Positions 3,490 to 59,215 of a stretch of 64,000 bases of DNA are shown in pieces (the stretch's first letter is position 1; each line of letters starts with the position of its first letter). A program made the position numbers and the translations under genes. A model generated the notes under the pieces. It had not been told where the DNA came from and made no database searches. It worked only from the letters and a program-made list of their open reading frames with translations. This DNA is from Deroplatys truncata (taxonomy: Eukaryota; Arthropoda; Insecta; Mantodea; Mantidae): positions 71,062,557-71,126,556 of the forward strand of contig CM060987.1 of NCBI GenBank assembly GCA_030765065.1, in the 5' to 3' direction.

Positions 3490-4621
3490 ACAGCCAAGAT
3501 AGTTAAAGTTTTGCACTGCTCCGTTATTTGATCATTCACCACTATTCTAGGTCTTACAGGCTGTTTCCCAGTGAATGCCATTGCTTTCGTTTTCAATACC
3601 TTCGATACCCTGTTGATAGTGAGAACCGTCGAGTTCTGCAGAATAGCCATGAACTGCAAACTCCACCTCTTCATTGTTAGCAAATCTTTTACTACCAAGC
3701 CGTTTCTTCAACTTTGGAAACGGAAAATAATCAGAGGGGACTAAATCTGGCGAATAGGGTGCATGAGGGAGCAATTCGAACTTTAACTCATCATCCATTT
3801 TGGCCATGGCGATAATGGATGTGTGAACTGATGCATTGTCTTGATGAAACAGAACTTTCCTTTTTGGCTAAATGGGGCCGTTTTTTATTGATTTCATTAT
3901 TCAAACGGTGCAATAAGTTCACATAATAATCACCATTGATTGCTTTTCCTTTTTGAAGGTAATCAATGAAAGTTATCCTACGCGCTTCCCAAAAAACTGA
4001 CGCCATGACCTTGCCTGCGGATGGATCTGTCTTCGCCTTCTTTGGAGCCGATTCTCCCCTGTCAATCCACTGTTTTGACTGTTCCTTCATCTCAGGTGTG
4101 AAGTGATGGAACCATGCTTCTTCCTTGGTTATGAATCGAGGCAAAAACTCGGCTTTATTGCAGAGAAACAGCGCCAAACACTCGACTGAAACATCCTCAC
4201 GACGCTGCCTTTTCCCATTGTGAGTAAACGCACAGCTTTCTCATGTCTAAATTTTCAGTTAGTATGCGATGTACAGCACTTTTTGAAATGCCTACGATGT
4301 CTGCTAGCTCGCACAATTTCAGTCGATGGTCATCCAGTACTATTTTGTGGATTTTTTTCCCCACAATTTCTGGCGTGGTCACCTCAATTGGTCGACCACT
4401 GCATTGTTCATCTTGGCAGCTCATAAGGCCTCACTTAAACTCTGCCACCCATATTTTACTGTTGTAAGCGAAGGAGCAGACTTCCACAGAGTAGAATCTA
4501 GCTCAGCTTTAATATTAGTTGGACTAAGACCTCTCAAATGAAAGTATTGTATCACATAACAATAACCAGTGTTACATATTTTGCAAATTCGCTGAGAGCG
4601 TTCACGATTGATGGCTGCCAA
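3490..4621 (-). pseudogene. Mariner-family transposase, broken
   Basis: This is a decayed cut-and-paste transposase of the Tc1/mariner superfamily, read on the minus strand in at least three frames. About 4621-4421 encodes the N-terminal region. About 4424-4197 encodes the paired helix-turn-helix part, with SGRPIEVTTPEIV and ADIVGISKSAVHRILTENL, typical of mariner DNA-binding domains. About 4177-3791 encodes the first catalytic region, where the usual DE(T/K)W appears as EEAWFHHF, so the first catalytic Asp is replaced. HQDNASVH near 3830-3810 supplies the second Asp, and YSPDLVPSDYF (about 3735-3705) supplies the third. Frameshifts and the lost Asp make it inactive. I found no clear terminal inverted repeats. 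Confidence 0.85.
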
Positions 4622-4629
4622 ACAATTAC

Positions 4630-5510
4630 TAAACTATGTAGCATCGTCAAACTTCAAACTTAAGCTTTATAAGGGTGGTACTTTCTACCATAGTCATTTG
4701 TTTGAAACATCCTCTATATATACTTCAGTTCAGGTACTTCTAGGACAGTCCTCGTACGTAGGTCGCCTACATATTACAATTCCCGAAGATTTGTCTTTCG
4801 ATCGTGTTGTAATCCTTGTGCATTTTTATTTTTCCAAGCTCTTATGGCATCGTCAACATATATATACTAAAACGAGAGGGTGCTAAACTGCACCCTTGTG
4901 TGCAGTTTTATTTGCCAAAATAGGTTCTTCAGGGAACTAAAGTGCTGTATTTGTCGTACCGATATACTGCAATGTTCTTGTTAATATCACTGCTACATGC
5001 GGGAAGTACTATAAATGGAATTATCGTATAACTAAAATGAGAGATTTTCTGCTAGTAACGTAATGGCATTAGACGATTGTATCAGAAAATACTGCAGCTT
5101 CTGCGTATTTTTAGAGCGCGCATAGTTGTGCATACCTACTTAACTCTGTTTAACCGAATCCTTCATTGCATTTGTCATTTAACCCGAATTTCAAGCTTGC
5201 ATTTATCAGGACTTGGGTCACAAATATTTGCTTAAATTGTTTAACCATTTTTTCTCAAGTTACAGTGTAACATTGCTGCATTCCTGAAAATAAAACGATT
5301 AACACTAATAATATAGGTAGTTAATAGTGGCCTTGTTACTGTTAATATCATTGGTAGCATTCAGTAATATCATTCATTGGTATATGAAATACAATCTCAG
5401 CTAATCAAATCACTGGCTAGGAATCCTAAAGCCGCAATATTTGTGCTAGAGTTAACTTTTGCACCTCTCCTACTACAAATTAAAACAATATGGCGATATG
5501 TATACTATAC
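4630..5510. other. Unassigned AT-rich sequence
   Basis: No gene, RNA or repeat family was recognised. Only short chance ORFs are present. Confidence 0.45.
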
Positions 5511-5514
5511 TGAT

Positions 5515-6805
5515 AGACCACGAGAAGAAGGCAGACCACGAGAAGAAGGCAAGCGAGAGGAATGTGTAACATCAACACTTTCCTGCGTCCGTATCATATT
5601 TACGCCCGCCGTGTGGATACGATAAGCATGTTAGGTTATAAACTACTATACTGTATTCACTCTTAGGTTGATCCGCGTCAAAACAAACCCCAGGTGACCA
5701 GTGCACCGTTATAATGTATCCTTCCGCCATTCGCACTAGAAATACTTCACACTTTCAGACCATGTGCGGTGACTATCATATTCTGTTTAGGGTTAAAGAT
5801 GATAAGATTGATAGTTGTAGCAAAACAAACGTTTGCACATACAATAATACTTAAGTCTAAAATAAATGAGCGAAAAATAAAGTAACAGGTATGTGATAAC
5901 TGAATATATTCACTCTCTGGAAGCGGCACTTTATTTACTGTTGGCGGCTCATTTTAAAAAAGAAATTGTGCACTGTTACGCGAATTGCATTCTTCTCAAG
6001 ATCACTACATTCCTGCATCGCGTATTTCATATGCTTTCTTTTTCTTTCTTTTTTTTCCGGGTGTAACCACTTTTCTCGTTTCAGATTTTTCTTCACAAGC
6101 ACTGTTTATACTTTTACTCGAAACACCGCTGAACTGGAAGTTAATTTCACAATTTCTTTCGCGGAAAGTGTTGGATATTTCTCAAATAACTTATAATAAA
6201 CATTCAACACTATTGTTTTTTCACCACTAGTCAATGGTTTGCGCGGCTAATGCTTTATGTAATTCGAAGAAAACACAAGAGCGAATTCACCGTCCTCCAT
6301 GATACTAAACACACTACTGGCTGTAAACAATATTCTGCGCCTACCCGGATGTCAGGTGACTCATACAAATTGCTTCATGGGACTTGTAGCTCTGTTTTAC
6401 GGTATAAATCAGCGATAAATAAAACTTTAGGTATTTGTATAGAATATTATACTATTTAAGCATAAATTCATTCTAAAATTCAGAGATTAGCATGGGACTA
6501 CTTTCCTGGGCGCATTGCTACCGTGTTGCAACACGGTGCACTGACCACGTGGCTTTGTTTTGCCACGGATCAACCTAAGAGTGAATATAGTGTACAGTGT
6601 TGTCAAGCACTATTCCATGGCAAGAGCCAATGCGTTAACACCTATTACGGCGGATGCTGTTCTACTAGTATCGGATCCTACATCATGGGTGGTTCATTTG
6701 CACACGTAAACACATTTCGTAGTAAACGTAGTAAACAATCGACAGTACGTAAGCAGATAAACAGTTACAGAACCCCGCTCGCCTTCTTCTCGTCCAACAG
6801 TACAC
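5515..6805. mobile_element. Imperfect foldback region, possible MITE
   Basis: Segments at the left (about 5640-5735) and right (about 6525-6600) are inverted copies; both contain GGATCAACCTAAGAGTGAATA or its complement with a neighbouring ACGGTGCACTG block. The outer edges also match in inversion: GAGAAGAAGGC at 5515-5552 is present twice in an 18-base direct repeat, and GCCTTCTTCTCGT lies near 6781-6793. The order suggests long imperfect terminal inverted repeats of a non-autonomous DNA element of about 1.3 kb. An 18-base perfect palindrome (6520-6537, ACCGTGTTG then its complement) sits at the inner edge of the right arm. No transposase is inside, and the class is not determined. Confidence 0.45.
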
Positions 6806-6856
6806 ATGACGCGCTTTGCTTGGTCATGGTTGCAGTTGATGGGAGGATGATGCTAT

Positions 6857-7071
6857 GAAGTGAAGAAGTGGAACTAACTCCGACGGAGTAAATGTCACAG
6901 AACAAACTCCGGCGCAGTAGGAAGTATTTGTTATGGTACTATAACGGAGTTGGAAGTAAATGCCATGGAACGAATACCGAAGGAAAGGCCAGTTCCGGAA
7001 AGGGGAGTAGTTACTTCATTTTTTTAAGGAGGGAACCGTTCCTTTGAAACGATTCCCACGACCCATCACTA
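6857..7071 (-). mobile_element. hAT-like terminal sequence (right-type end)
   Basis: The stretch ends in CGACCCATCACTA (7059-7071), the inverted counterpart of the end at 1595. It carries the same style of subterminal repeats (GAAGTGGAAC, CTCCG, GGAAGTA). The flanking 8 bases are ATATATAT, which do not match the left flank. Confidence 0.4.
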
Positions 7072-7079
7072 ATATATAT

Positions 7080-8597
7080 AATCTGTGTATGCTAAACTTT
7101 AAAGAAGTTCCGAGTTGTTGGTGTTCTCTGATATTAACTTAGGCATGAAGATACGCATATTAACGAAAAGCAAATAAGCATTTGTCCTTTCCGGGAAATG
7201 TAAAGAAAGACGTTGACGCCCTGGGAAAGCATTGCTCCTAAGTTGTATTTGCATATGCATACAGCACTCTCCAGTATCAGTTTAAAAATTACGTTTTTTT
7301 CAGGTGTTACATAAGGAGCTTTTTGTTCTGGTCAATCGAGCATTATAGGGGTGATTTTCAAGGCTTAATCTCAGGTTTAACTCTGAATGCAGGTGTCTTT
7401 AATAAGATAAAAGTTCTCTCAAAATTCAGCTTTCAGCAAGAAAGATGTCTGATGCAAGGCAGCTTTTCATCTGTTGACGAGAAAACAGCCGCGAATATTT
7501 CAGACAACTATAAAATATTTTGTAGGATTTTTTTCTACTACAAACTTTATAGGCACAGTGGATTAATTAAACCTAAAACGTGCATTACCTTATTGTTAGT
7601 AAGGTTTATACTTAATATTGTTGAGGTAATTAATCAGCTTGCAAAGCTTGAAGAAAGCCGATTGAAATGCCACAAATGTTGCATCTTTCCCATTTACCCA
7701 GGCCCGATGGGACCGTCTACATGGAAACAAACACACTAGCCTAAAGTGATTTTCAAATGGGATGATGTTTGTCCTTGAGCGGGGCCAGAGCGGTCCGCTG
7801 TGTTGTCATATTGCATTCGCCTAAGTTAAGCTTTTGGGTTGCTTTTACGTCGACCATTCTAGAGCCAGTTGAGTGAGAGGGAAATATGAAAAGAGTGTGG
7901 GTAACGAGGCGGCAACGCTGAGCACGCAAATGCACCTCATTCGCTGCAGAGCAGAACTCTTCCCATTTGAAACTAATAATAGGCTTGTTGCATGTTAGAA
8001 TTGATAGGAAGTGTAAAGCGTTTCATGTGCCAGCTGAAGCAAGAAACTACTTTTGCACGTAGTTGATTCCTCGCAAAATAGCACTTCTATTTATACAAAA
8101 GTGAATGTTTAAGAAGTTATTAAATAAACCGTTTAGAATGGTCGAATATGTTTGTAAAAGTGCTGTTCAAGAATTTTTACTTTATAGTGCATTTGCTTTA
8201 AGTTGAAACATGGAAAGTACAAAGAGAGAACGCTATATTCCAAACGACAGTTGATAATCTTGAACTGCTTAATCTCAAAAGCTTTATAATTGAAACTTAC
8301 TGTTTAAAATGTGGATTAGGTTGAAACATGAAATTTAAAAGAGAACAACCACCACCAGCTTGTAACAATACGAAAGCCAGCGAAGCAAGGACGGTGAAGA
8401 TATCAGGATATTTTCCATATTCCCTGCCAAAAGTGCAACTCGCAACAACACTACGCCGATACTGAGAAGACTAAGCGGTAAAGGGTGACTGTGGCAGGGT
8501 TTCTCAGCACTCGAACCGTCATTAACACACACTCCCTCCTAGACCGGTCAGGTAGCGACAAAATGGTCTGTTTCAACTTAAACCTTACGTAGTGTAG
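7080..8597. other. Unassigned sequence with one open frame
   Basis: A plus-strand frame is open from 7323 to 7739 (138 codons, only a TTG at its beginning). The predicted product is mixed and I do not recognise it; chance is a fair explanation. No repeat family was identified in the rest. Confidence 0.3.
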
Positions 8598-9390
8598 TTT
8601 CTTTCTCTACTTTCTACCACGTACCTAGTAGACAGAGAAGGTATTGCATTTCGCCCAAAACTTTGATATCGAGATTTCACCGAAAGTACACGTTTTGAGG
8701 CCCCCTGAATACAAAAAAAAAGCATTTTTAGAAAAAATCCATGTGGAGTTTTGTGAACAGCATGACATGACTCAGAAAAGTCGGATCAACATCAAATTTG
8801 GTATTTAAGTTTAATATCTTCCAAAGATGCGACACGAAGATTTTCAAGAAAATTCCCCTACCCCATACTACCTTTTACATGGAATATTATTCGAAATTTT
8901 TCATTTTCCAAAAATAAAGATTTGGCTTTAAGATTTTCATTAAAATACCGTATATTACATGTATTTATGACAAATAAAATGTATATGTTGAATTTTCTGG
9001 GAATAGCGTTTGAAGTCTTCATTCGGAAGGAATTTTGTATAATCTTGTATAACAGGTAAACGTTAAACGATGAACGAAAACGTACTACATAAGAAGTGTA
9101 GATCTCTTTACAACACACCATTTAGATCAAATAACTTTTATTGTGGCATCAGGCATTTCCAAGATATCCGTTATTAATGGTTCGAATTTTCAATACTTAG
9201 CCGTTCTTTTAAAGTCCTGTTAACATTCAGTTGTTTCTCGCGATGTCATGGAATTGTCTAATTTAGCTATTTCTGCAAAGGTTTATTTGGTTTAAAATGA
9301 AGTAGGTATAAAAATAGTTTTAGTAAGATAGTTTGTATAGCCATTGATAAACGATAAGGTCATGTGGATGTATCACATTCGATTTTTATT
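8598..9390 (+). repeat. HINE-like repeat, near-complete
   Basis: Forward copy. The 5' part reads CTTTCTCTACTTTCTACCACGTACC and then GATATCGAGATTTCACCG. Internal landmarks follow, including GATGCGACACGAAGATTTTC. The 3' hairpin is kept as ATGTG, loop GATGTAT, CACAT (about 9362-9378). The microsatellite is almost absent in this copy. It belongs to a variant group whose 5' end carries CCACGTAC. Confidence 0.85.
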
Positions 9391-9513
9391 TGATATTCTG
9401 TTGGTGTTGAAGCACAAGATTTTATTTGAGATCAAGGATGCCAGCTTTACAGGAATAGGGTATTAGTGGAAATAGAAACTGTTTTAACAGCTTATTGCTC
9501 TATTCATTAAATA

Positions 9514-10424
9514 CAAAAATCTGATGTGTTACACTCACATGACTTTCTCTACTCTTGTACAAACTATTTTTACAAATGCTTATTCTACATCTACTTTGTT
9601 AATCGAAATAAACATTTGCAGACTCTATCTTATAGCTAGTTTTCTTGTAGATGTAAGGGGAATGTATATTTACAAGGGCAGTTTGGAAATATAGTAGCCT
9701 TTAAGCACATACATATCTCTTAATAGCTGGTTGCTAGGTGCAGCACCATTCCCTTTCCCACAGATTAATACTCTTTGCATATCCAAGACAAAAAAAAATG
9801 AATAACGAATTCCCATTTGAGAAAATAAGTATTGAAAAATTTAAGGGAATAACAAGTAATATCTCGAAAATGGTTCACTCAACAACAAAAAATGTATATG
9901 ACATAAATTGTGTATTTTAACGCGATCTACATTTTATGTGTAGTAAAATTTTGTCTATCTCTTATGGTTTACCAGTTATGCAAAAGTCATTCACAATAAA
10001 GAATACTTTTGGAGACATTCCCAGGAAATTTAAGATGTACATTTTATTTGTCATAAAAATATCTTAAACATATGATATTTTAATCAAAATCGTTAGAGCC
10101 ATTTTTGAGAAAATTAAAATTTTCGAAAAATGTTCCATGTAAAGGGTAATCTAGGGTGGGGGGATTTTCTTGAAAACCTTCGTGTCGCATCCTTGGAAGA
10201 TACTGAACCTAAATACCAAGTTTGGTGTTTATCCGACTGTTCGTTTCTGAGTTATGCTGTTCACAGACACACACACACACACACACGGACATGTTTCCAA
10301 AAATGTTTTTTTAGGTTTCAGGGGGTCTCAAAACATGTATTTCCGGTGAAATCTCGGTATCGAAATTTTGGGTGGAATACAATACTTCCCCTACTTACTA
10401 TACGTAGTAGAGAAAGTAAAAATA
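9514..10424 (-). repeat. HINE-like repeat, full-length
   Basis: Reverse copy of about 0.91 kb. Its 3' end (left side) has the hairpin at 9524-9540 and the subterminal motif ACTTTCTCTAC at 9542-9552. Its 5' end (right side) has GTAGAGAAAGT at 10407-10417 followed by an oligo-A tract. The internal microsatellite is a short (AC)n at 10264-10285. No ORF of significance lies inside. Confidence 0.9.
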
Positions 10425-32611: not shown

Positions 32612-33508
32612 TATTACTTTCTCTACTACGTATAGTAAGTAGGGGAAGTATTGTATTCCACCCAAAAATTCGATACCGAGATTTCACCGGAAATACATGT
32701 TTTGAGACCCCCTGAATTCAAAAAAGCATTTATGGAAACATGTCCGTGTGTGTGTCTGTCTGTGAACAGCATAACTCAGAAACGAACAGTTGGATAAACA
32801 CCAAACTTGGTATTTAGGTTCAGTATCTTACAGAGATGCGACACGAAGGTTTTCAAGAAAATCCCCCCATCCCAGATTACCCTTTACATGGAAGATTTTT
32901 CGAAAATTTTAATTTTCTCAAAAATGGCTCTAACGATTTTGATTAAAATATCATATGTTTAAGATATTTTTATGACAAATAAAATGTATATCTTGAATTT
33001 TCTGGGAATGTCTCCAAAAGTATTCTTCATTGTGAACGACTTTTGCATAACTGGTAAACCATAAGAGATAGACAAAATTTTACAACACAAAAAATATAGA
33101 GCGCGTTAAAATACACAATTTATGTCAATTACATTTTTTTTGTTGAGTGAACCATTTTCGAGATATTGCTTGTTATTCCCTTAAATTTTGCAATACTTAT
33201 TTTCTCAAATGGGAATCCGTTATTCATTTTTTGTCTTGGATATGCAAAGAGTATTAATCCGTGGCAAAGGGAATGTTGCTGCACCTAGCAACCAGCTATT
33301 AAGAGATATGTATGTGCTTAAAGGCTACTGTATATTTATATTGACCTTGTAAATATATATTCCCCTTACATCTACAAGAAAATTAGCAATAAGGTAGAGT
33401 TAGCAAATGTTTATCTCGATAAACATGAAGTAGATGGAGAATAAGCGTTTGTAAGAATAGTTTGTACAAGAGTAGAGAAAGTCATGTGAGTGTAACACAT
33501 CAGATTTT
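32612..33508 (+). repeat. HINE-like repeat, full-length
   Basis: Forward copy. ACTTTCTCTAC at 32616-32626, microsatellite GTGTGTGTCTGTCTGTG (32746-32762), inverted GTAGAGAAAGT at 33472-33482, hairpin ATGTG/CACAT at 33484-33500, then CAGATTTTC. This copy is very close in sequence to those at 55513 and 58319. Confidence 0.92.
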
Positions 33509-45044: not shown

Positions 45045-46190
45045 TACCTACTTGACATATTGGTGTGCATGATATACCATATGAAAGGCTATCTCACAAA
45101 GTTTGTTTGGTATACCTTACAAGTGTTCAATGTGTGCGCCTCTGGTTACACGGGAGACATCCAGGCTATAGTCCAATTCCGCCCACACCTGCACCAGCAT
45201 GTCACGGTCGATCGTTGCTATCGCTGCTCTAATGCGATCTCGGAGGTCCTTCAAGTCAACTGGAAATGGTGGAATGAACACCCTATCCTCCACATATCCC
45301 CAGAGAAAGAAATCACGTAGTGTTAAGTCCGGGGATCGGGGCGGCCACGGAAACAATGCGACGTTATTGTCAGCATGTCGTCCAATCCAACGTCGCGGTA
45401 AGTTCTGGTTCAGTCGCGCGCGCACGAGTCGATGGAAGTGGGGTGGGGCCGCGTCCTGTTAGAAAACGAAGCCACCCATGTCTGTCAGTTGCGGCACAAG
45501 CCATTTTCTAACATGTTCAGATAAGTGATGCCAGTCACTGTGGATTCGGCGAAGAAAAAGGGCTCATAAACTTTGTCCTTTGACAGGGCGCAGAACACGT
45601 TGATCTTTGGGGAGTCGCGCACATGCTCGAATGTCACATGTGAGTGTTGGGTTCCTCAAATGCGGCATGGTGACGGTTTAGTTTCCCCGACAAGTGAAGC
45701 GTTATTTCGTCGCTGAAGACGACTCTGTCACCAAAATCATCATCTGCCATTGCAGTCTGCATGTCGATAGCAAATTGTGTGCGAACCTCCTTGTCATCAT
45801 CTGTGAATACCTGCAGGAGTTCCAGTTTCTGCGGTTTCACCTTCAGTTGCTTGCGAAGAATCCGCCACACAGTCGACTGGACATTCCCAACTGCAGACTT
45901 GTACGATTTGTCGATTTCTGAGAGCTGCGCGCAAACAACTCACGAACACCTGTAACAGTGGCGTCTGACGATCCCGGCCTTCTGGATCGTTTGGTTGGAC
46001 ACAAACAACCAGTACTCTCGAACGTTTCACACCACCTCTTGATGCTCCTGCAATCTGGCGCATCCTTGTGAAACGAGTGCGAAATCACCGCTGCGCAGTC
46101 ACAGTAACCTGTTTTCGCAAATTGTATCGCACAAACGCCTCTCTCGTTACCTGCTAACGCCATTTTGTACACTCCTGTCGCCTATCGGCC
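45045..46190 (-). pseudogene. Mariner-like transposase relic (DUF4817-type)
   Basis: Minus strand, nearly complete gene order but in several frames. 46172-45843 gives the N-terminal helix-turn-helix (VCAIQFAKTG, SIKRWCETFESTGCLCPTK). About 45870-45634 gives WRILRKQLKVKPQKLELLQ, then RVVFSDEITLHLSGKLNRHH with the first catalytic Asp. About 45455-45420 reads QDAAPPHFHR with the second. 45425-45117 reads RSPDLTLRDFFLWGYVEDRV with the third region, then LRDRIRAAIATIDRDML. All three acidic blocks are present, but frameshifts and stops separate them. It belongs to the same broad group as the element at 28714-30434. I could not define its terminal inverted repeats. Confidence 0.85.
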
Positions 46191-55512: not shown

Positions 55513-56411
55513 TGTTTTTACTTTCTCTACTACGTATAGTAAGTAGGGGAAGTATTGTATTCCACCCAAAAATTCGATACCGAGATTTCACCGGAAATAC
55601 ATGTTTTGAGACCCCCTGAATCCAAAAAAAGCATTTTTGGAAACGTCTGTGTGTGTGTCTGTCTCTGTGAACAGCATAACTCAGAAACGAAGAGTCGGAT
55701 AAACACCAAACTTGGTATTTAGGTTCAGTATCTTCCAGAGATGCGACACGAAGGTTTTCAAGAAAATTCCCCCGCCCCAGATTACCCTTTACATGGAATA
55801 TTTTTCGAAAGTTTTAATTTTCTGAAAAATGGCTCTAACGATTTTGATTAAAATATCATATGTTTAAGATATTTTCATGACAAATAAAATGTATATCTTG
55901 AATTTTCTGGGAATGTCTCCAAAAGTATTCTTCATCGTTAACGACTTTTGCATAACTGGTAAACCATAAGAGATAGGCAAAATTTTACTACACAAAAAAT
56001 GTAGATCGCCTTAAAATACACAGCTTGTCATATACATTTTTGTTGTTGAGTGAACCATTTTCGAGATATTGCTTGTTATTCCCTTAAATTTTTCAATACT
56101 TCTTTTCTCAAATGGGAATTCGTTATTCATTTTTGTGTCTTGGATATGCAGAGAGTAATAATCTCTGGCAAAGGGAATGGTGCTGCACCTAGCAACCAGC
56201 TATTAAGAGATATGTATGTGCTTAAAGGCTGCTGTATTTCTATATTGCCCTAGTAAATGTATATTCCCCTTACATCTGCAAGAAAATTAGCAATAAGATA
56301 GAGTCTGCAAATGTTTATCTCGATTAACATGAAGTAGATGGAGAATAAGCGTTTGTAAAAATAGTTTGTACAAGAGTAGACAAAGTCATGTGAGTGTAAC
56401 ACATCAGATTT
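55513..56411 (+). repeat. HINE-like repeat, full-length
   Basis: ACTTTCTCTAC at 55520-55530, short microsatellite GTGTGTGTCTGTCTCTGTG (55651-55669), inverted GTAGACAAAGT at 56376-56386 (one change), hairpin ATGTG/CACAT at 56388-56404, then CAGATTTTTTTT. High similarity to 32612 and 58319 suggests these are young copies. Confidence 0.93.
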
Positions 56412-58318
56412 TTTTTCTTGCTTAGCATTTTCCAAGTTTCCACTATGCAACACTCCATGCAAAGCGCCTCACTTAAATCTTTTGGTTAGTTCTTTGTTTG
56501 ATTGCACGTTTCCTGTGCCACTTCTTCCTCTGACTTGCGACCACAGATCATGCTACCACTTAAGGTACATACCAAGTATCTGAAACTTCCACTTTTCCAC
56601 TATCTAAAACCACTATTATGAACGTAGTCCCAAACAAGTGGTTCTCAAGAGACCTGGGTTTACAATTAGAGATATCCCCGTGCGGTAATCAGAATTACAA
56701 TTTAAAGTGATGTAGTTAAACAAAGGGCACCCTTTATTTCACATTCTTGTGGCCGAGTTGTGAGGTCTTTACCCCGCATTTTTAGAGGAGAATGCCACGG
56801 ACGGAAAACACGGCTCACAGCCGTTCCGGCCAATTAAAGCAACGCGGGAAACAAAGGCGGAAAAAGCAAGCCCTTAATGACTGTAGCAACACGAAACGTG
56901 ATCTTAGGCCTCTTTGGGTGACCGCTAGCACATTCTCTTGCAGGTCACGTAAATATACTAAAATGACGGACTCTTTTGCATTTAGTGTGTAGCTTCATCT
57001 AGGCTCATTAGTTTTTCGACCGGTGAACCAAATGCAGGCTTATCTCTTAGGAAATAGATTAAATTAAGTTCAATAGAGCTTGCAAGGCACCAATCGGCAC
57101 TCTTCAAAGAAGCCGAGATCAGGGCGTCGCTATCAGTGTTATACTTAAAATGGGGCAAGTTCATGCAAGGTGTAGAAGACTTGGGCATATTTCGTTGAAA
57201 TTGGTTTCATGGAGACAAACTATTTTAGGACCATTTTCGTTTAAAAGAGTCTGAATTGTAATGTGCCCAAATATTCCTGATGCGCCCAAAAACCGCTAAG
57301 TTTCTATTGTAATCTTTTACTGTCATAGTTAATTGGTTTACGTGTGATTTTAAAAACTGATTGGAGGTCCTGTAGTAAATGCGTTCTGTTAAGTTTTTTT
57401 TATTAGTCTAGTACATCCGTTTTTTGTTCCTCAATCACTGATGGAGGGAGCTTGTTTTTTCTATGAAGTTAGCAAGTCCTTCGAGATCGCTAATGTAGCT
57501 GAGACCGAAAAACTTAAGCAGCTGCAGAAAAGCTACAGAACATTCATTTTCGTTTTAACTCTTTCCTCTCTGCACCGACGATATTGATTCAACGTTTCTG
57601 GTTTTCTTCTCCTTGTTTGTTTGTTTCTTTCTTTGTGTGTTTAATGACTCTGTTTGGTTCATAGTTATCGGAAGCGTCTTCCTATGAAGAATTGGAGAAA
57701 AGGAGCTCCCGACCCTCCACTTCTGTCTTAGATGTGCTACTTGTTGAATGTACACGTTTGAGTTTTTGACCATAGGGACTGCTTTGGTTATGCCAACATT
57801 ATTAGTACCTATTTTTTTCTGGTATGTTTGTGGCTAAACATCATGAAATTCCATTTCTTGTGACTGCTAACTTGATAAAAATGTTTGTATGTGTTATATA
57901 GCATCTTTGTTGCATCCTAGTCTGTAACTTCAGCTGGTGTTTTTTCTTGCTCAATTCAAGAAAGTTGACAGTACTTAAATCGAGCACGGCTTGTGTTACC
58001 CCGTTCTCATTGTTACTGCAATGAGATATGACATGAGTAGTAGTACTGGATGAAGCCTCCTGGTGTGTTTTGGTCTGACGTCACACTAGTTGGCCTTTCT
58101 GTTTTCATAGGAAACAAGTTGGACAGTCTGACGAGAAATATATCCAACAATTAGTTCCCTTGATTATTCCGAATGCTTTCAGGTGGATTGATGTACATTT
58201 GTCTCTTAAAAACTTAGTATGTGTGTGAACTCAGGTTCATTCATGCTCTTCTAATACAGGATTTGGAAAGCTCACATAAACATTTGCCTTCATAACAAGG
58301 GTCTTACATTCAGCGATG
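56412..58318. other. Unassigned sequence, one basic small ORF
   Basis: A 66-codon frame (56792-56992) is locally GC-richer and encodes a Lys/Arg-rich peptide (QLKQRGKQRRKKQALND). It could be a worn LINE ORF1 end but lacks a diagnostic motif. The remainder shows nothing recognisable. Confidence 0.3.
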
Positions 58319-58463
58319 TATTTTTACTTTCTCTACTACGTATAGTAAGTAGGGGAAGTATTGCATTCCACCCAAAAATTCGATACCGAGATTTCACCGG
58401 AAATACATGTTTTGAGACCTCCTGAATCCAAAAAAAAGCATTTTTGGAAACATGTCCGTGTGT

Positions 58464-58514
<51 letters not shown>

Positions 58515-59215
58515 TGTGAACAGCATCACTCAAAAACTAACAGTCGGATAAACACCAAACTTGGTATTTACGTTCAGTATCTTCCAGAGATGCGACACGA
58601 AGATTTTCAAGAAACTCCCCCCACCCCAGACTACCCTTTACATGGAACATTTTTCGAAAATTTTAATTTTCTCAAAAATGGCTCTAACGATTTTGATGAA
58701 AATATCATATGTTTAAGATAATGTCATGAGAAATGAAATGTATATCTCGAAATTTCTGGGAATGTCTCCAAAAGTATTCTTCATTATGAACGACTTTTGC
58801 ATAACTGGTAAACCATAAGAGATAGACAAAATTTTACTACACAAAAAATGTAGATCGCGTTAAAATACACAACTTATATCATATACATTTTTTTTGTTGA
58901 GTGAACCGTTTTCGAGATATTGCTTGTTATTTCCTTAAATTTTCCAATACTTATACTTTTTCTCAAATTCGTTATTGATTTTTTTATGTCCTGGACATGC
59001 AAAGAGAATGGAATGCGCCACATAGCAACCAGCGATAAAATATTTGACTATCGCTTAAAAGCTACCATATTCCCCTTGCATCTACAAGAAAATTACAAAT
59101 AAGATTGACATCTCGATATCTCGATTAATATGAAGCATATGGAGAATAGGCGTTTGTAAAAATAAATTGTACAAGAGTAGAGAAAGTCATGTGAGTGTAA
59201 CACATCAGATTTTTT
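58319..59215 (+). repeat. HINE-like repeat, full-length reference copy
   Basis: The clearest copy. TA, then oligo-T, ACTTTCTCTAC at 58326-58336, conserved 5' block (GATACCGAGATTTCACCGG at 58382-58400), expanded GT microsatellite at 58459-58513, conserved middle (GATGCGACACGAAG, TTTACATGGAACATTTTTCG), inverted GTAGAGAAAGT at 59177-59187, hairpin ATGTG-AGTGTAA-CACAT at 59189-59205, CAGATTTTTT and then TA. No coding capacity. The plan fits non-autonomous Helentron-type elements; the class remains an inference. Confidence 0.92.
58459..58513 (+). repeat. (GT)n microsatellite inside HINE-like copy
   Basis: Longest GT run of the family in this window. Other copies have 3-10 units at the same place. 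It explains Val-Cys and Thr-His pseudo-frames on the two strands. Confidence 0.97.

Follow-up and report, generated by a model that had tools for sequence, protein, structure and literature searches.

HINE/DINE-1 elements, as set out in the sections of Thomas et al. (2014, PMC4067079) on which we draw, have subterminal inverted repeats (subTIRs) of 12-15 bp, which are palindromic in the mite-type HINEs, a 3' hairpin and, optionally, a microsatellite; they insert in T-rich sequence without target modification, carry variable numbers of terminal T's and share their ends with a Helentron partner. Helentrons, in the same sections, encode Rep (GSPH, Y.R signature), a PIF1 helicase and, at the C-terminus, an endonuclease in one long ORF, and have ends in common with HINEs. 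The repeat family reported here, from the mantid Deroplatys truncata, resembles these elements in all these respects, with subTIRs that are 12 bp long and palindromic. In contrast with the HINE/DINE-1 elements covered there, it has more than 160,000 exact 5' ends, comprises two subfamilies with near-identical ends and uses its own T7/A7 tracts as repeated landing sites. Its autonomous partner differs from the Helentrons covered there in a PF04843 match near the N-terminus, where OTU-like proteases are reported, in the lack of an RPA frame in the part examined, and in a young lineage with two 5' ends.

Two further systems are close in particular aspects. For the FoHelis of Fusarium it has been proposed that, after self-insertion, the nick falls at the leftmost 5' end and transposition halts at the first 3' end (PMC5148889). 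The composite FoHelis described in that paper, like the lineage reported here, have several 5' termini and one 3' terminus; their duplicated 5' piece is typically <200 bp, with donors not shown in the sections used, whereas here it measures ~630-680 bp and can be traced to a donor family, insertion is exactly at the pad, and what results is an autonomous Helentron present at different sites. Cg_HINE of Crassostrea gigas, as presented in the corresponding sections of PMC7492417, likewise has internal repeats, T-run insertion and a link to satellite DNA, but is tied there to no autonomous partner, whereas here one is tied, and, unlike in Cg_HINE, the satellite monomer holds a whole HINE. Among the titles and abstract openings listed from the open-access literature we found no published report of the present family; the 11-letter subTIR string, in either orientation, occurs in 16 open-access papers, and no title among these points to transposons.

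The window, i.e. the whole stretch of 64,000 nucleotides that was analysed (assembly GCA_030765065.1, contig CM060987.1, positions 71,062,557 to 71,126,556), contains a ~0.9-kb unit, which we assign, with a probability of about 0.95, as a HINE, i.e. a non-autonomous Helentron derivative in which the 5' module and the terminal ~39 bp at the 3' end are retained and there is no coding region. Its features, in window coordinates, are as follows.

58321..59215, + strand: complete HINE copy, subfamily A, from the 5' T5 through the 3' T6 (blastn; 91-98% identity to 39 other full-length genomic copies scored)
58321..58325, + strand: terminal T run, 5' side (mode of 5 T, in 16/30 genomic copies)
58326..58337, + strand: 5' subTIR, ACTTTCTCTACT (motif and inverted-pair search)
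58326..58359, + strand: 5' palindrome, the subTIR pairing with AGTAGGGGAAGT, including two G-T pairs (fold of the 30-copy consensus)
58430..58437, + strand: A-run (A8), an insertion pad as a T-run on the opposite strand, in 4/30 fetched copies
58458..58518, + strand: GT microsatellite (repeat search)
58979..58985, + strand: T7 tract, principal pad for self-insertion (genome-wide, 16,692 filled 5' junctions that match exactly)
59167..59174, + strand: palindrome TTGTACAA, directly upstream of the 3' subTIR (read from the sequence)
59176..59187, + strand: 3' subTIR, AGTAGAGAAAGT (motif and inverted-pair search)
59189..59205, + strand: 3' terminal hairpin, ATGTG-N7-CACAT (sequence and fold; also in the 30-copy consensus)
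59210..59215, + strand: 3' T run (T6), preceded by CAGA

The first-pass annotation of this DNA had proposed a Helentron-type non-autonomous family on the basis of 11 inverted bases near both ends, a hairpin at 59189-59205, a T-rich tail and an internal microsatellite. The inverted pair proves to be one base longer (12 bp, 100% complementary, 58326-58337 with 59176-59187), the hairpin is borne out by both sequence and fold, the tail and the microsatellite are present as T6 and the GT repeat, and the family assignment agrees with the anatomy, the partner with common ends and the T-run insertion described below. The start given there, 58319, needs correction, as the element begins at ~58321, with TTTTT followed by ACTTTC at 58326. 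The subTIRs are subterminal and asymmetric, as 28 bp in total, including the hairpin, lie downstream of the 3' repeat. The energy of the 5' palindrome in the 30-copy consensus is -15.8 kcal/mol as RNA and -4.9 as DNA; a scan of the window gave no Rfam match at gathering scores. With up to one mismatch allowed, the window contains 21 instances of the motif ACTTTCTCTAC; 100 dinucleotide shuffles give an expectation of 1.44 and a maximum of 5. The copy at 58321 has no coding capacity; its only stop-to-stop frame of at least 100 aa, of 101 aa, runs across the microsatellite.

A blastn search of the window with the unit gave four near-complete copies (58319+, 55515+, 32614+ and 10424-) plus many fragments, so that the earlier count of at least twenty copies holds if fragments are included and not for near-complete copies. 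The other three form a second subfamily.

55515..56414, + strand: complete HINE copy, subfamily B (blastn)
32614..33508, + strand: complete HINE copy, subfamily B (blastn)
9515..10424, - strand: complete HINE copy, subfamily B (blastn)

With two query copies, the family covers 16.6% of the window (10,640 bp in 32 merged segments); a reversed-window control gave a single match, which we read as the microsatellite. The 58319 copy lies 1.4% from the subfamily A consensus, of whose 30 members it is one, and the B copies (55515, 32614 and 10424) are 5.4-5.9% apart mutually and 11% from 58319. A and B agree almost exactly over ~110 bp at the 5' end and ~60 bp at the 3' end (57/60), and the differences, ~11% overall, lie mostly toward the 3' third. 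The copies at 32612, 55513 and 58319, cited by the first-pass annotation as recent, thus mix two subfamilies, and recency fits 58319 (A) and fits 32612 and 55513 (B) less well. The suggestion of recent activity stands for subfamily A and for the autonomous element, with its near-identical 3' ends.

The assembly that contains the window comprises 4.29 Gb in 818 contigs, in which the 23-base 5' end occurs exactly 164,813 times (reversed control 0); our statement of abundance is based on these exact 5'-end counts, which are counts of ends and do not imply as many complete copies. All 40 candidates scored, out of 1715, match over the full length, with 91-98% identity apart from the query. The best 30 of these 40, which were fetched, differ by a mean of 1.8% from their consensus and by 2.8% pairwise; since the ranking favours young copies and family-dense places, both the age and the share of nesting in this sample are biased. 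The consensus that the first-pass annotation had suggested building from all genomic copies was built from these 30. Neither end has an exact match in viral contigs, nor the 5' end in prokaryote genome contigs, sets from which near-genome records may be absent.

A search of the same genome for a Rep/helicase element sharing the two ends, likewise suggested beforehand, was successful. With the Pfam Rep model PF14214, for which 150 of 291 candidates were scored, the genome yields 152 matches and 14 control genomes yield none. In the young group the frames are 2108-2543 aa long (at least 18 listed), and the Rep motif YYQRVEFQMRGSPHEH / DYYQRVEFQMRGSPHEH (GSPH, with YYQR preceding) is present in 10/10 loci examined (L051-L060). 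Pfam analysis of a partner frame, scanned in two pieces, identifies the Rep domain (Helitron_like_N, 7e-28) and, in the same ORF, a PIF1-type helicase (PF05970, 1.6e-27; Walker A GSAGVGKS in one copy, L061/L062). The C-terminal match to Exo_endo_phos_2 (PF14529, E 1.3e-5) has 25.5 bits, below the Pfam cut-off of 27.4, and the assignment as an endonuclease therefore leans also on its position and on the family. One copy, on contig C9, was obtained in full; its 2324-aa frame contains PF04843, DUF6570, Rep, PIF1 and the C-terminal endonuclease match. A PDB search with the Rep part returned only the bat Helitron transposase Helraiser (7lcc), weakly (E 0.0033; 0.11 for a single stretch). An RPA ORF is reported for several Helentrons and is not universal; in the 0.95 kb between ORF and 3' end of L061 the longest frame is 76 aa. 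Two further observations concern L061. Near the N-terminus of its Helentron frame, which runs from 5129-9998 into L062, is a match to PF04843 (Herpes_teg_N, E 8e-11 alone), and its DNA at ~6.0-6.9 kb is a tandem repeat, with matches recurring at multiples of 63 bp and an overlapping lysine-rich frame that is likewise repeated; frames may differ in length for this reason.

The partner is tied to the HINEs by both ends: its 5' module is 88-90% identical to theirs over roughly 650-760 bp, and its last 39 bp are 92-95% identical. Exact autonomous-type 3' ends number 224 genome-wide. On contigs C1-C6, 19 of 52 Rep matches have a same-strand 3' end 4.36-4.46 kb downstream (chance 0.007), the 52 being those of 56 listed that remain after omission of the four weakest, three of which are second pieces of matches already used; for the listed frames >2000 aa on these contigs, the shared 3' end lies ~4.4 kb downstream of Rep in 8/8 cases. 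Seen from the 3' side, C1-C6 have 98 exact ends of the autonomous type, of which 79 have no paired Rep, on a Rep list from 150/291 scored candidates, and some may derive from deleted elements. Five autonomous copies agree at 99.0-100% over their 3' 515-544 bp (four young copies at 99.6-100%), and, judged by this near-identity, the autonomous element has evidently been active very recently. The HINE-A consensus matches the autonomous 3' end at 45/60 positions (75%), and the window B copy at 55515 at 42/60, against a published threshold of 80% for one subfamily; the exact progenitor of HINE-A may therefore be another (sister) Helentron subfamily. The 11-bp identical subTIR by which a family is defined is present in A, and the B copy at 55515 has one 3' subTIR mismatch.

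The number of terminal T's varies between copies. Among the 30, ACTTTC is preceded by 5 T in 16 copies, 6 in 8, 2 in 3, 7 in 2 and 4 in 1, and CAGA is followed by 7 T in 17 and 6 in 6, with others from 2 to 9. A clean empty site is available that is paralogous, and not orthologous as had been proposed for defining the termini: the Helentron copies L061, L063 and L067 read CTACTGTA-T8-CTATATTG, and the filled counterpart in L065 reads CTACTGTA-T6-[949-nt HINE]-T7-CTATATTG, the gain being the element plus five T's and nothing else. In the copies with a 5' run of TT, the repeat abutting both ends is 2 T in 4/4 tested (L005, L019, autonomous L069/L070 and 32616 in the window), which rules out a 5-bp duplication there; L002, with another copy following directly, and the 10417(-) case, where the reading is one base off and the repeat includes the element's own A, were left out. 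The T gain is variable, 6 of the 18 listed nested sites having T5 before and T7 after the element, against a T7 consensus empty site, with exceptions including L022 (T5 and T9) and L028 (a TTTTTAATTTTTTTT join). In long T-run targets a T-only duplication is indistinguishable from T's borne by the element, and T numbers vary between sites; at the sites tested, no duplication beyond T's was found, and the clean empty site and the four TT-run copies substantiate the anticipated insertion between T's.

By analogy with published Helitron/Helentron models, the partner's Rep would nick the 5' T run marked by the palindromic subTIR, and the PIF1 helicase would peel off one strand as far as the termination signal formed by the 3' subTIR and hairpin. 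The C-terminal endonuclease would probably nick a T run, into which the peeled strand would then be joined with no target duplication.

T runs within the family itself are also used. At least one flank lies at the family's own T7 (14) or A7 (4) tract in 18/30 fetched copies, and 7/30 lie directly behind the 3' T tail of another copy, both in the biased sample described above. One locus (L003) has three 5' ends, with CGTTATTCATTTTT before each, and another (L007) has three 3' ends spaced 231 bp apart. Genome-wide, exact filled T7 junctions number 16,692 for the 5' side and 13,123 for the 3' side (reversed controls 0), exact empty T7 sites 75,244 (reversed control 0), including satellite copies, e.g. 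at C1:20305-122593, and exact tandem joins 6,010 (reversed control 0). These junction counts are lower bounds and are not directly comparable, because the pattern sensitivities differ. An excess of self-nested 5' junctions would be expected if composites with doubled 5' ends were common; we rejected it after calibration on 30 complete copies, in which the 3' pattern pieces are exact in 19 and 21 and the 5' pieces in 29 and 28, so that the direction of the 5'/3' asymmetry would even reverse and a genome-wide excess of doubled 5' ends is unsupported. The T7 pad holds 10.1% of exact 5' ends (16,692/164,813), against a rough expectation of 3-4.5% that treats all T/A runs of at least 7 as equal and takes the run density from this window alone, where 46 runs lie in the 53.4 kb that do not belong to the family, and the pad numbers from the genome-wide counts and their calibration, with co-duplicated arrays distorting both sides; this suggests that the pad is preferred over other T runs.

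The use of the T7 tract bears on the structure of the autonomous lineage, for which 5' regions were fetched from five copies (L061, L063, L065, L067 and L069). Only one 5' end is present in L069, whose flanks, as far as fetched, do not match the family. L061, L063 and L067 have two serial 5' ends: a first module extends to a T7 tract and is followed by the Helentron's own 5' end, the outer module being 98% identical to the HINE-A consensus, gaps excluded. L065 has the same inner junction, its outer end lying beyond the fetched stretch. The outer flanks of L061 are without a family match beside the ends and those of L063 and L067 lie in the T7 tract of further HINEs; the presence of the two-headed unit at different outer flanks indicates that it moved as one. 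On comparison of these sequences, the composite is best explained by insertion of a Helentron in the T7 tract of a HINE, followed by mobilisation from the outer HINE 5' end, i.e. a Helentron would have landed in the T7 tract and replication would next have started from the outer 5' end, halting at the first 3' end. We base this reading on the autonomous copies, because the genome-wide asymmetry is unsupported.

Other interpretations, of the unit and of the composite, need to be weighed against these assignments. Canonical Helitrons begin with 5' TC and end with 3' CTRR, whereas the unit here has the ends TTTTT-ACTTTC and CAGA-TTTT, with CAGATTTT at its 3' end, and subTIRs at both ends. An origin from a canonical Helitron (Helitron1) is accordingly most improbable, even though both groups are rolling-circle transposons and a GLPH-type Rep exists in this genome. 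Of the 20 loci L031-L050, L031 and L037 have this motif; a search of the longest frame in each of the remaining 18 did not reveal it. None of these 20 candidates has both HINE ends in its 1.5-kb flanks, L040 having one 5'-end match, and the partner that does share the ends carries the GSPH motif of Helentrons. Insertion here is into T runs and not, as for canonical Helitrons, between A and T (PMC5148889, in the sections used). It would be about as surprising if the unit were a MITE, i.e. a cut-and-paste derivative bounded by terminal inverted repeats and flanked by a short, T-rich duplication of the target. The unit is short, non-coding and high-copy, it has a perfect 12-bp inverted repeat, and such elements have previously been annotated as MITEs (PMC4067079, as described in the sections cited above); however, its inverted repeats are subterminal and asymmetric rather than truly terminal, only T's are repeated at the tested sites, with no duplication of constant length, and its ends belong to a Rep/helicase/endonuclease element. 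For the 4.2-Gb assembly of the stick insect Clitarchus hookeri, MITEs are reported to rank first among the repeats, with 1,214,018 copies (5.79%), in a paper whose main text does not use the word 'Helitron' (PMC5691397); these MITEs could be HINEs.

With respect to the composite, the double 5' end might instead have arisen by local tandem duplication or by recombination between neighbouring copies, and not by transposition from the outer 5' end to the first 3' end. The family does form tandem junctions, as the exact joins above demonstrate, and recombination between repeats is common in general. We nevertheless consider such an origin unlikely, because the inner 5' end lies exactly in the T7 tract, where independent insertions also sit, because the outer module is a piece of HINE-A (98%) ending at T7, and because the unit occurs with different outer flanks (L061 versus L063/L067). 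In L061, moreover, the stretch from the 5' ends to the autonomous 3' end, and several kb beyond it, contains no HINE 3' end. Insertion in T7 followed by mobilisation from the outer 5' end fits into a wider picture, in which the family would be its own preferred landing ground: its T7/A7 pads would be used more than comparable T runs elsewhere, nested arrays would launch composites and seed tandem and satellite arrays, and the young chimaera would have obtained its first 5' end from its own parasite. We put this wider picture forward tentatively, at odds somewhat below even.

Several neighbouring structures were observed. Near the start of C1 is a tandem satellite with 3.41-kb monomers, of which neighbours are 99.4% identical (7 kb read, L072, C1:27001-34000); the stretch read includes one whole HINE (90% identical to A; 5' end, AATTTC) and, equally spaced, two others truncated by the edges of the stretch, and at C1:20305-122593 the T7 site recurs 31 times at the spacing of the 3.41-kb monomer. 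Among the joins listed, regular tandem HINE joins have a spacing of 2,481 bp at C1:19824416-19831894 and of 904 bp at C1:47040819-47042663, looking like rolling-circle or composite tandem arrays. A 10-kb locus (L073, C1:13833400-13843399) is its own reverse complement at 99.75% over its length, forming a palindrome in which nested HINE pieces surround a short tandem array; a second locus (L071, C1:22027600-22033700) has one arm in common with it and a 963-bp perfect inverted end pair. This palindrome is either a real structure or an assembly fold-back. Within the window, positions 3547-4240 (-) have mariner-type transposase fragments in two frames (Transposase_1, E 3.4e-23; DDE_3, below its cut-off). 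Positions 45117-46181 (-) have a DUF4817 match below its cut-off, in fragments that resemble another DDE transposase.

The kind of element described here is already known; the value of this new member lies in its partner and copy number, in its self-nesting and in the chimaeric lineage of autonomous copies. Not every HINE family can be tied to a partner, as the oyster case shows; here, 18 listed long frames and near-identical copies occur in one genome, which makes the HINE/Helentron pair amenable to testing. Exact self-insertions, in their thousands, constitute natural empty sites and data on how Helentrons choose T runs, start and stop. The lineage with a doubled 5' end illustrates in detail, and with a known donor family, a route proposed from fungal Helitrons. 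If repeats of this type are filed as MITEs in the host or its relatives, the repeat annotation of these genomes would need revision.
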